A program made the translations under genes and the position numbers. Below, piece by piece: positions 49,386-52,733 of a stretch of DNA of 52,815 nucleotides. Numbering within the stretch: the first letter of the stretch is position 1; each line of letters opens with the position of its first letter. The notes under the pieces are model-generated. The model searched no databases. It was given only the letters and a program-made list of their open reading frames with translations, and was not told where the DNA came from. The stretch comes from Verrucomicrobiota bacterium (GTDB taxonomy: Bacteria; Verrucomicrobiota; Verrucomicrobiia; Limisphaerales; JACQFS01): positions 1 to 52,815 of the forward strand of contig JACQFS010000053.1 in assembly GCA_016199935.1 (NCBI GenBank). The letters run 5' to 3'.

Positions 49386-49763
49386 GTGAATTGCCCGCAC
49401 TGCCAGAAAGAGCAGCCGCCCAATTACTCGCCCGAGTGGTGTCGGTTTTGCGGGCGTGATTTGTTTCCAGATCAGATTTCATCAGTCGAGTCGCCAGGAA
49501 TAAACTGGCCAATTTTTTTCGCCGTGCTACTCGCGCCGGCCATCCTGTCATTGATTGGATTAGCTCTGAAAGTCGGTGGATTGGTGCTAATCGCCACCTT
49601 CGGTGGAAGTTTGATTGCGGGCAAGGTTTGCAGTGCCATGCTCGATGAGCGCTGGGGAATGTCCTCGGTGGTTCAATGGTTGCTTGCCATCGTGCTTGCC
49701 ATGTTGAGCTTTCTTCTTTGCTTCGGCGGCTGCCTCGCAGGTGCAGTAATCACAAGCCGCTGA
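49386..49763 (+). CDS. Small membrane protein with N-terminal zinc ribbon (first of the radical SAM cluster)
   Basis: The 125-residue product has a zinc ribbon at the N-terminus (C3, C6, C19, C22: CPHC, CRFC), then membrane helices (FFAVLLAPAILSLIGLALKV, GLVLIATFGGSLIAGKV) and a last hydrophobic segment ending LLCFGGCLAGAV. The membrane part resembles the small proteins at 51212 and 51715 (PA-x-L, LIG, C-S and G-C-L-A spots). Starts with GTG, as ATG is absent. It lies nine bases upstream of the radical SAM gene. Function unknown; base composition is somewhat less GC-rich than around it. Confidence 0.7.
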   Translation: MNCPHCQKEQPPNYSPEWCRFCGRDLFPDQISSVESPGINWPIFFAVLLAPAILSLIGLALKVGGLVLIATFGGSLIAGKVCSAMLDERWGMSSVVQWLLAIVLAMLSFLLCFGGCLAGAVITSR

Positions 49764-49772
49764 CATCAGTTT

Positions 49773-51215
49773 ATGCCCACACTCCCACTTTCCCTCGCCG
49801 CGCAGCAGCAACTCCTCAAGCGCACGCGCTCCCGCTGCCCCGTCTGCCACGCCCCCTGCCCCGCCGAGGTCTGGAAACTCGGCGACGCGCCCGCGAAAAT
49901 TTTCCTCAAGCGCACCTGCCCCGAACACGGCGAGGCCACCGCGTGCATCGCTTCCGATGCGCGCTTCTACTGGCTCGCGCAGGGCAAGGCGGAAAACTCC
50001 GGTGCCTGCTGCGGTGCCTCCCGCCCGACTCCCAACTCTCAACTCTCAACCACCCCCGGCTCCTGCTGCTCCGCCGACGGCGCGCGCTCCGGCACGCTTG
50101 GCCGCAACGCCGACCCCGGCGACGCGCTCGGCGTGCAGGAAAAACTTTCCACCTGCCTCGCGCTCATCGAGCTCGTCCACTCGTGCAATCTCGCCTGCCC
50201 CACCTGCTACGCCGGTTCGCCCGTCGGCGCGGGCGCGCACGTGGACGCCGTGCCGCTCGCCGATTTGCAGCGGCGCATCCAGGGCGTGATTGATCGCAAG
50301 GGCGAAATCGAAATCCTCCAGCTCTCCGGCGGCGAGCCCACGCTGCACCCGCAGTTCTTCGAGTTCATCGAATGGGCGCAGGCGCACCCGCGCATCGGCT
50401 ACCTGTTGCTCAATACCAACGGCGTCCGCCTCGCGCAGGACGACGCGTTTGCGGACCGGCTCGCGAAAACTTTTCGCTACGGAAAATTCCAGCTCTATCT
50501 CCAGTTCGACGGCGTGCAGGAAGCCGCGCAGAAAACACTGCGCGGCGCCGACCTCCGCGCGCTGCGCGAGCGCGCGCTCGAACGCTGCCACGCGATGAAC
50601 CTCCCCGTAACCCTCGCCATGACCGTGACGCCAGAAAATCTCCCGCACCTATGGGACGCCGTAGAGTTCGGCCTGAAGTTTCCGCACGTGCGGGGAATCA
50701 GTTTCCAACCGATGTTCACCAGCGGACGCATTCCGCCATCGCGCAATGCGCCGCACGCATCGCCCACCGCGCGCCTGAACACCGCGGACATCATCCTGGC
50801 CACCGTTGAACAATCCCTCGGCGTCCTGAGTTTCGATGACTTCACGCCCCTGCCCTGCGGCGACCCGAACTGCGCGACCATAGGCTACCTGCTGAAAGTC
50901 GGCGGGCAGGTGCGCAGCGTGAGCGACTTCGTGGACTTCAGCGCGGTGCAGGGATTTCTTCGCGACAAGGTGCGCTACCAGCTCAGCGACCTGTCGAACT
51001 GCGGCTGCGAATCCGAGCCGCTCGGCGCGCTGCTCAAGCAGTTCGAACTCGACGAGACCCACACCTTCCGCCTTTTCATCAAGCCGTTCATGGACGCGTG
51101 GTCGTGGGACGAGGACCGCATTGACCGCTGCTGCACCCACGTCATCCGCCCGGATGGAAAACTGGATTCGTTCTGCCGCTACTACTCGGGCTTTGCTGAT
51201 TGCAAAACGAAATGA
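49773..51215 (+). CDS. Radical SAM protein of the MJ0619/tetraether-synthase-like family
   Basis: The 480-residue protein has an N-terminal zinc-ribbon-like region (C22, C25, C29, C49: CPVCHAPCPAEVW, RTCPEHG), the radical SAM cluster motif C138-x3-C142-x2-C145 (HSCNLACPTCYAGSP), the SAM-binding QLSGGEPTLHP, and a distinctive end DRCCTHVIRPDGKLDSFCRY (C453, C454, C468). The 'CPEHG' ribbon and the C-terminal 'CC-H-V-I-x-P-D-G-x-x-x-x-F-C' pattern are features of the MJ0619 type, which includes archaeal tetraether lipid synthase and related bacterial enzymes. This suggests a role in lipid tail coupling or methylation, but the substrate is unproven. About 20 residues (80-99) look like inserted repeat. 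Confidence 0.75.
   Translation: MPTLPLSLAAQQQLLKRTRSRCPVCHAPCPAEVWKLGDAPAKIFLKRTCPEHGEATACIASDARFYWLAQGKAENSGACCGASRPTPNSQLSTTPGSCCSADGARSGTLGRNADPGDALGVQEKLSTCLALIELVHSCNLACPTCYAGSPVGAGAHVDAVPLADLQRRIQGVIDRKGEIEILQLSGGEPTLHPQFFEFIEWAQAHPRIGYLLLNTNGVRLAQDDAFADRLAKTFRYGKFQLYLQFDGVQEAAQKTLRGADLRALRERALERCHAMNLPVTLAMTVTPENLPHLWDAVEFGLKFPHVRGISFQPMFTSGRIPPSRNAPHASPTARLNTADIILATVEQSLGVLSFDDFTPLPCGDPNCATIGYLLKVGGQVRSVSDFVDFSAVQGFLRDKVRYQLSDLSNCGCESEPLGALLKQFELDETHTFRLFIKPFMDAWSWDEDRIDRCCTHVIRPDGKLDSFCRYYSGFADCKTK
50031..50057. repeat. caactct word repeat inside the radical SAM gene
   Basis: The stretch cccaactctcaactctcaac followed by cacccc lies in frame inside the coding sequence and encodes PNSQLSTTP in a Ser/Thr/Pro loop. 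The word resembles AT-rich word repeats otherwise seen between genes. It interrupts the spacer between the zinc ribbon and the radical SAM domain and is not expected in orthologues. Confidence 0.55.
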
Positions 51216-51546
51216 GTCTCATGGAAAATAATCCAAGCCCACCTCAAGTAAAAATTGAAACGAGAAAGTCGCTAACCCATGCACTGGCTTTGGCATTCGC
51301 GCCTGCGGCGTTGGCACTGGGAGTATTCACCATTGCAGTAACCGACTTTTTCCCAACCATCACAACATTCTGGCAGCATTTAATTGGTTGGGTTTGTTGC
51401 GTGTTAAGCCTTTTTTGTTGTGTGGTTGCTTCGATGATCATGTTCCAAAGACAAACATTTTAGCCGTTGTGGTGGGTCTTCTGTTGTTGTTGGTAAACGC
51501 GTTCATAGCATTTTGCTTTGGTTGTGCAGCCATAATCAAATTTTGA
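51212..51546 (+). pseudogene. Small membrane protein, frameshifted copy (second of cluster)
   Basis: The frame opens ATGA, sharing bases with the radical SAM stop codon, and encodes MSLMENNPSPPQV, LALAFAPAALALGVFTI, LIGWVCCVLSLFCCVVASMI, FQRQT before a stop at 51463. One base earlier the other frame continues ILAVVVGLLLLLVNAFIAFC and ends at 51546, exactly matching the last part of the paralogue at 51715. A single-base loss near 51455 therefore splits the gene (about 111 residues if intact). The region is AT-richer than both neighbours. Either a decayed copy or an assembly error. Confidence 0.65.
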
Positions 51547-51605
51547 TGCTGATATTTCCTGATTCCGCCGCCGACGGCTTGCCGAAGCTCGCGAAAGTTT
51601 CCGAG

Positions 51606-51701
51606 GGCATTGACCGTTGCTGCACGCACGTCATTCGCCCGGATGGGAAATTGGATTCCTTCTGCCGCTACTACTCGGGCTTCACGGATTGCACACACTA
51701 A
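51606..51701 (+). pseudogene. Duplicated 3' fragment of the radical SAM gene
   Basis: The frame encodes GIDRCCTHVIRPDGKLDSFC, then RYYSGFTDCTH and a stop, nearly the last 27 codons of the full radical SAM gene (49773-51215) with some silent and a few coding changes. There is no start or upstream catalytic part. Together with the following small membrane gene it repeats the layout 'radical SAM end + small membrane gene', so it marks a partial tandem duplication. Confidence 0.8.
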
Positions 51702-51714
51702 AACCAAATCGTTT

Positions 51715-52029
51715 ATGGAAACCCCGCCACTGCTCCCGCCGGACCACCAACCCAAACCCTCGCCCGCCCTCGCGCTCATCCTCGGCTTCGTGCCGGCTGC
51801 GCTCGGGCTGCTGCTCATGGCCTCGAATCCCGGCAAGAAGGAATTGGTGCCGCTGCTCATCGGCCTCGCCGTCGGGAGCCTCGTCTGCTGCCTCGCGTCG
51901 TCGCTGCTGCTTTTCCGGCGGCACACCGGCGGCGCAATTGCGGGTGCCATCGTGTTCCTGCTGCTCAACGGCTTCATCGCCTTCTTCTCCGGCTGCCTCG
52001 CGCTGTTCAGCAACACGAATTTCCATTGA
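51715..52029 (+). CDS. Small membrane protein (third of the cluster)
   Basis: The 104-residue protein has about three membrane segments: LALILGFVPAALGLLLMA, LVPLLIGLAVGSLVCCLASS and IAGAIVFLLLNGFIAFFSGC, with a proline-rich cytosolic or outer N-terminus (METPPLLPPDHQPKPSP). It is the intact paralogue of the frameshifted gene at 51212. Its TGA overlaps the ATG of the Lgt-like gene (TGATG), indicating translational coupling. No known family was recognised. Confidence 0.75.
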   Translation: METPPLLPPDHQPKPSPALALILGFVPAALGLLLMASNPGKKELVPLLIGLAVGSLVCCLASSLLLFRRHTGGAIAGAIVFLLLNGFIAFFSGCLALFSNTNFH

Positions 52030-52733
52030 TGCCCCTGCCGCAATCCACCGCCTATGGCTGGCTGATGCTCGCGGGCATCGCGGTGAGCATCCTGTTCTGG
52101 TCGCGGCTCGCGCGGCGCGACTCGCGGCTCGTGCTCATCTACGTCGCCGCGCTCACGGGCGCGTTTCTCGGCGCGAAAATCATCTACCTCCTCGCCGAGG
52201 GCTGGCTCCATTTCGGCGCGGAAGATTTCTGGCTCCAGATCGCCACTGGCAAGAGCGTGCTCGGCGCGTTGCTCGGTGGCTACGCAGCGGTCGAGGCCGC
52301 GAAAAAGTTCACCGGCTACGCGGGCGTGACCGGCGATTGGTTTGCCACCATCGCGCCGCTCGGGATTTTGCTCGGCCGCGTCGGCTGCCTCTTGCACGGC
52401 TGTTGTCTCGGCCGCGCGTGCGACGCCGCGTGGTTCACGCTTGCGGACAACGAAGGCGTCGCGCGCTGGCCGGCGGTGCCGGTGGAGATCGGTTTCAACG
52501 CGGCGTGCCTCGTGGCCCTCCTCGCCCTGCGCCGCGCGGGAAAATTTCCCGGCCAGCATTTTCATCTCTACCTCATCGCCTACGGCCTCTTTCGTTTCGT
52601 GCATGAGTTTCTCCGCGACACGCCGCGCGTGTTCGCGGGCCTGAGCGGTTATCAATTCGCCGCGCTCGCTTGCGCGGCGCTCGGCGCGTGGCGATTCCGG
52701 CAGCGCCGTGCCGTTGTTGCGTCGCCGGGCTGA
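52029..52733 (+). CDS. Lgt-like (prolipoprotein diacylglyceryl transferase family) membrane protein
   Basis: The 234-residue polytopic protein resembles Lgt: GKSVLGALLGGYAAVEAAKK, then the signature-like IAPLGILLGRVGCLLHGCCL (R117), and YGLFRFVHEFLRDTP near the C-terminus with the second conserved arginine. Real Lgt transfers diacylglyceryl from phosphatidylglycerol to lipoprotein cysteine. The essential histidine of E. coli Lgt (H103) aligns with L78, and the N of GNF is a cysteine, so this is probably a paralogue with a different lipid-related reaction. Start ATG overlaps the previous stop. Position after the radical SAM gene supports joint action on membrane lipids or lipoproteins. Confidence 0.78.
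   Translation: MPLPQSTAYGWLMLAGIAVSILFWSRLARRDSRLVLIYVAALTGAFLGAKIIYLLAEGWLHFGAEDFWLQIATGKSVLGALLGGYAAVEAAKKFTGYAGVTGDWFATIAPLGILLGRVGCLLHGCCLGRACDAAWFTLADNEGVARWPAVPVEIGFNAACLVALLALRRAGKFPGQHFHLYLIAYGLFRFVHEFLRDTPRVFAGLSGYQFAALACAALGAWRFRQRRAVVASPG

Follow-up and report, generated by a model that had tools for sequence, protein, structure and literature searches.

Gene organisation of the locus

The genes described here lie on the forward strand of a 52,815-nt stretch of Verrucomicrobiota DNA (contig JACQFS010000053.1), the whole of which is referred to as the window. They encode a radical SAM protein (rSAM), a paralogue of Lgt (Lgt2) and small membrane proteins with transmembrane (TM) helices, arranged as follows.

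49386–49763 (+): small membrane protein 1, with a CxxC..CxxC zinc-ribbon-like N-terminal part and three TM helices; its C-terminus, ...LLCFGGCLAGAVITSR, has a Cys past the last TM helix
49773–51215 (+): rSAM of the Tes/TrsS/MJ0619 superfamily, 480 aa, assigned by profiles and the fold of its AlphaFold model
51118–51204 (+): 3' end of the rSAM gene, copy 1 of an 87-nt direct repeat, within the rSAM gene
51221–51463 (+): small membrane protein 2, frame-broken, ending ahead of its C-terminal helix; 44% GC
51464–51546 (+): remainder of small protein 2 in a different frame, ...VVVGLLLLLVNAFIAFCFGCAAIIKF, with the C-terminal helix and Cys
51607–51693 (+): rSAM 3' end, copy 2, 90% identical to copy 1
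51715–52029 (+): small membrane protein 3, 104 aa, three TM helices, C-terminus ...NGFIAFFSGCLALFSNTNFH
52029–52733 (+): Lgt2, 234 aa, assigned by PF01790, the Lgt fold of its model and its residues

The first-pass annotation of this DNA had described a cluster of five genes, and its coordinates, strand and tight junctions were all re-found: a 9-nt gap separates small protein 1 from rSAM, an ATGA overlap lies at the rSAM stop, and a TGATG overlap joins small protein 3 to Lgt2. The enzymes and small membrane proteins are indeed tightly packed; the count of five has to be qualified in that the middle small gene (51221–51463) is frame-broken. Gene damage and duplication in the window had been overlooked. 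The broken gene lies between the two copies of the 87-nt repeat and differs in composition from the window (44% against 65% GC), and together these features give this part of the window the look of a recombination scar. Among the rSAM loci read, duplication of the rSAM 3' end was confined to this one. Plain tandem duplication of the rSAM tail with a small gene is unlikely: identity is 90% between the tails but only about 39% between small proteins 2 and 3, which are also more than 20 points apart in GC. A lone rSAM tail (G026:C98) was considered as a mobile cassette and rejected, as it is located where a contig ends and the simplest explanation is a split gene of which it forms the other half.

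The radical SAM protein and the Lgt paralogue

Membership of rSAM in the Tes/TrsS/MJ0619 superfamily, as originally proposed, is supported by profile scores and by the predicted fold. Its best NCBIfam match is the TrsS profile NF045646, at 220 bits against a cut-off of 490, and the Tes profile NF045702 gives 153.1 bits against a curated cut-off of 450; with both scores under their cut-offs, assignment to either family was rejected. The Pfam matches are PF04055 and PF23545. The AlphaFold model (pLDDT 81) matches GDGT-MAS (7tom) with a Z score of 37.1 and an rmsd of 2.9 over 399 aligned residues, and the next-best fold reaches Z 19.8. The CPEHG ribbon and CCTHVIRPDG end noticed earlier were confirmed, alongside a CNLACPTC radical-SAM motif and a CC-H...FC C-terminal domain. 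With motifs taken from PMC9433317, the radical SAM CX3CX2C site (C138/C142/C145) and the rubredoxin-like CxxC...CxxH site (C22/C25/C49/H52) are present; the N-terminal auxiliary cluster motif C73-X3-C77-X2-C80 (plus His) is absent from the window rSAM and its main clade. This auxiliary [Fe4S4]N CX3CX2C motif is present in the divergent L129, L130 and L131. Tes Met439 and Tyr459, fully conserved among 1000 archaeal homologues, are not kept: the aligned residues are K437-P438, an approximate position because the alignment has a gap of two there, and V457. The reading of rSAM as a tetraether synthase proper thus fails on the Tes cut-off, the missing [Fe4S4]N motif and these two residues, and profiles and model together support a member of the superfamily outside Tes itself. 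Defence-system membership was also rejected, PADLOC yielding no more than weak viperin matches across the radical SAM core. Across 49 aligned rSAM rows, 37 columns are invariant.

Lgt2 scores about 88 bits (87.6) against PF01790, above the gathering cut-off of 24.9, and falls under both NCBIfam Lgt equivalog cut-offs (39.8 against 118.9 and 69.3 against 334 bits). Its model (pLDDT 93.6) matches E. coli Lgt (5azb) with Z 14.1 over 216 aligned residues. The equivalents of Arg143, Tyr235, Arg239 and Arg246 are kept as R117, Y185, R189 and R196, the donor-site residues R117, R189 and Y185 (for R143, R239 and Y235) being found in 54/54 Lgt2 sequences. The replacement of the key histidine, E. coli His103, by Leu78 was verified; the basic residue here is K75. 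Across the 54 sequences this position is L27, T10, M9, V5, I2 and A1, the HGGL motif is changed, a basic K/R stands three residues ahead of the 103 position, and N146 has become Cys. In E. coli His103 is essential, substitution by A, N, Q, R or Y abolishing complementation, and the HGGL motif was proposed by Mao et al. to bind the acceptor peptide (PMC4728403). The missing histidine, real as it is, is by itself weak evidence, because the housekeeping Lgt of the same genome has Tyr at this position and other Lgts have Y, W or F (PMC13251419). A GCC motif was dropped as a hallmark of Lgt2 because the housekeeping Lgt shares it and it is missing from the copies of Mycobacterium, Persicobacter and L129. 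By sequence and modelled fold, Lgt2 is an Lgt-fold paralogue separate from the genome's own Lgt.

The rSAM–Lgt2 pair is real and old. In Verrucomicrobiota, Lgt2 adjoins rSAM on the same strand at 74 of 84 rSAM loci, and the three loci that lack it despite room belong to genomes that carry it elsewhere; in a 241-genome sample of the phylum, rSAM occurs in six genomes and the same six have an adjacent Lgt2. Outside the phylum, an rSAM relative is paired with Lgt2 in one Bacteroidota record (Persicobacter) and three Actinomycetota records (Mycobacterium branderi, M. avium and Nonomuraea). Divergent Lgt2-paired relatives of rSAM reach 307.8–327.6 bits against NF045646, also below 490. The first-pass annotation had counted orthologues that are never adjacent among the outcomes that would speak against its proposal; the opposite was seen. 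The module was not described in any paper that turned up in literature searches on TrsS, on an rSAM–Lgt pairing or on a lipobox at protein C-termini.

Small membrane proteins and their C-terminal cysteine

Nearly all of the small proteins end as a TM helix, a Cys at the outer end of that helix and a tail of 3–16 residues. Counted without demanding G, A or S ahead of the Cys, C-terminal-helix Cys occur 88 times near the rSAM–Lgt2 pair and twice in far flanks (0.201 against 0.0027 per kb, 75-fold). The preceding residue is Gly in 55 cases, Ala in 13 and Ser in two. At the protein level, 83 of 104 small proteins with a C-terminal TM helix near the pair have the Cys, against 5 of 25 in far flanks (Fisher p 4e-8); 29 of the 84 loci are without a match in this test, some of them positive by ORF scan and others with short flanks or unreliable gene calls. 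The signature, which had previously been overlooked, spans several phyla and different architectures (zinc ribbon plus one TM helix, three TM helices, doubled forms). All four records from other phyla have the same helix–Cys–tail geometry, with a conserved CTG[LI]NP tail in Actinomycetota. Pfam and NCBIfam searches placed the small proteins in no family, save for weak zinc-ribbon matches.

The density of Lys and Arg is 0.185 ahead of the last helix and 0.073 in the tail, and is higher ahead of the helix in 60 of 65 proteins. This bias predicts an N-terminus inside and a Cys on the outer face, the side of the Lgt active site (PMC4728403). The strict lipobox [LVI][ASTVI][GAS]C fits just 6 of 65 motifs, position -3 being mostly Phe; a looser lipoprotein pattern fits 50 of 65. 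The three other-phylum motifs checked match neither pattern.

A candidate pathway and its relation to known systems

The superfamily of rSAM, the Lgt fold of its partner and the adjacency of orthologues make lipid or lipoprotein modification, as first proposed, a sound inference in general; its extension to ether-linked or membrane-spanning lipids is unsupported. Taken together, rSAM, an altered Lgt and small proteins with a C-terminal Cys suggest an undescribed form of lipid attachment near protein C-termini. In our preferred reading, to which we give somewhat less than an even chance, the module lipidates the C-terminal Cys of the small proteins via Lgt2, and rSAM makes or tailors the lipid. 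We infer that the small membrane proteins would be the acceptors, with the N-terminus inside, the last helix bearing the Cys at its outer end and a short tail outside. The conserved arginines of Lgt2 would hold a phospholipid, and the enzyme would move a glycerolipid, or a related lipid, onto the Cys thiol, its acceptor-binding site presumably being altered relative to ordinary Lgt. By radical chemistry, rSAM would act on an unactivated alkyl chain, ahead of transfer or else on the lipidated protein. The few strict lipoboxes (6/65) and the other-phylum motifs that fit no pattern count against the acceptor model, and the residues found at the essential His103 position leave room for an Lgt2 with no transferase activity or with some other role. 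It is possible, though we consider it doubtful, that the module is a new bacterial pathway of at least three phyla that mirrors lipoprotein maturation at the C-terminus. Its Lgt-fold enzyme, changed at the acceptor site, would then attach a lipid that a Tes-like rSAM makes or remodels.

Where Lgt2 is unlinked, the small proteins remain beside rSAM and not beside Lgt2, so they could serve rSAM. As non-substrate partners they would present lipid or pass electrons to a soluble rSAM, their Cys being working or structural (disulfide, metal ligand, thiol radical relay), and Lgt2 would supply or accept lipid. Translational coupling of several small proteins to rSAM, the N-terminal zinc ribbon of some and a tail that mostly has no strict lipobox are in keeping with such a role. 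However, several divergent small proteins per locus, with little more in common than helix, Cys and tail, resemble tagged substrates rather than one conserved subunit, and the Cys is predicted on the face opposite the cytosolic rSAM; we therefore judge these partners a rather unlikely explanation.

Less likely again is the reading offered at first, that rSAM joins alkyl tails into membrane-spanning or otherwise unusual lipids, with Lgt2 moving diacylglycerol units for their building and the small proteins assisting. The fold is that of a lipid-tail-coupling enzyme in a lipid-pocket superfamily, and 456 bacterial Tes homologues have been put forward as brGDGT makers (PMC8941075); geochemistry papers count bacterial Tes homologues as possible sources of these lipids. 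The departures of rSAM from Tes in score, [Fe4S4]N motif and residues invariant in archaeal homologues argue against it, as does the Cys signature, which it leaves unexplained; lipid data for these organisms were not found.

A ribosomal lipopeptide pathway appears improbable. In it Lgt2 would lipidate the Cys, cleavage ahead of the Cys by a type II signal peptidase-like activity would free a lipidated C-terminal peptide of about 4–17 residues, and rSAM would modify lipid or peptide. The short tails (3–16 aa past the Cys), the several variable precursors per locus, the conserved actinomycetotal tail and the common use of radical SAM enzymes in peptide maturation would suit it; but rSAM is nearest to lipid enzymes, its matches to peptide maturases being weak, the tail once inserted would be outside and beyond a cytosolic rSAM, and the loci showed no recognisable protease or exporter dedicated to such a pathway. 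Chance could have placed a degenerate Lgt next to a generic radical SAM protein, and the broken small gene and duplicated rSAM end could be cited for this, but such an account is scarcely credible in view of the cross-phylum co-occurrence and adjacency and the invariant rSAM columns.

A large subgroup of Tes homologues is tied instead to an Lgt paralogue and C-terminal-Cys small proteins, and this speaks against taking every Tes homologue for a synthase of membrane-spanning lipids. Bacteria would possess a C-terminal counterpart of lipoprotein lipidation if the acceptor hypothesis is true. Isolates suited to direct testing are Chthoniobacter flavus, Luteolibacter marinus, Verrucomicrobium and Haloferula, and perhaps Mycolicibacterium smegmatis.

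Among known systems, rSAM resembles Tes/GDGT-MAS (MJ0619; PDB 7TOL/7TOM; NF045702) in its radical SAM core, rubredoxin-like CxxC..CxxH site, CC-H...FC domain and whole-length fold (Z 37.1, 399 aa), and differs in profile score (153 against 450 bits), in the [Fe4S4]N motif missing from its main clade, in Met439 and Tyr459, and in its Lgt2 partner; the closer profile is that of the TrsS radical SAM (seleno)protein. Lgt2 shares with Lgt (PDB 5AZB; PF01790) the fold, the R143/Y235/R239/R246 equivalents and GRxG; unlike Lgt, it has L/T/M/V/I/A for H103 (Y/W/F in others) in 54/54 sequences, K/R three residues earlier and Cys for N146, and occurs as a paralogue in addition to the genome's own Lgt. 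MSMEG_5408, the second Lgt homologue of Mycolicibacterium smegmatis, shares reported residue changes, and at its reported changed positions the aligned mycobacterial Lgt2 copies appear to carry His and Cys. Like the small proteins, MYXO-CTERM and further sorting signals with a C-terminal Cys carry it as an invariant residue of a membrane-anchoring region at the C-terminus. The MYXO-CTERM Cys motif stands ahead of the C-terminal helix (PMC11980579); that of the small proteins does not, their Cys lying past the helix, 3–16 residues from the C-terminus. In canonical lipoproteins a lipobox ends an N-terminal signal peptide, whereas in the small proteins the Cys is C-terminal and rarely within a strict lipobox.

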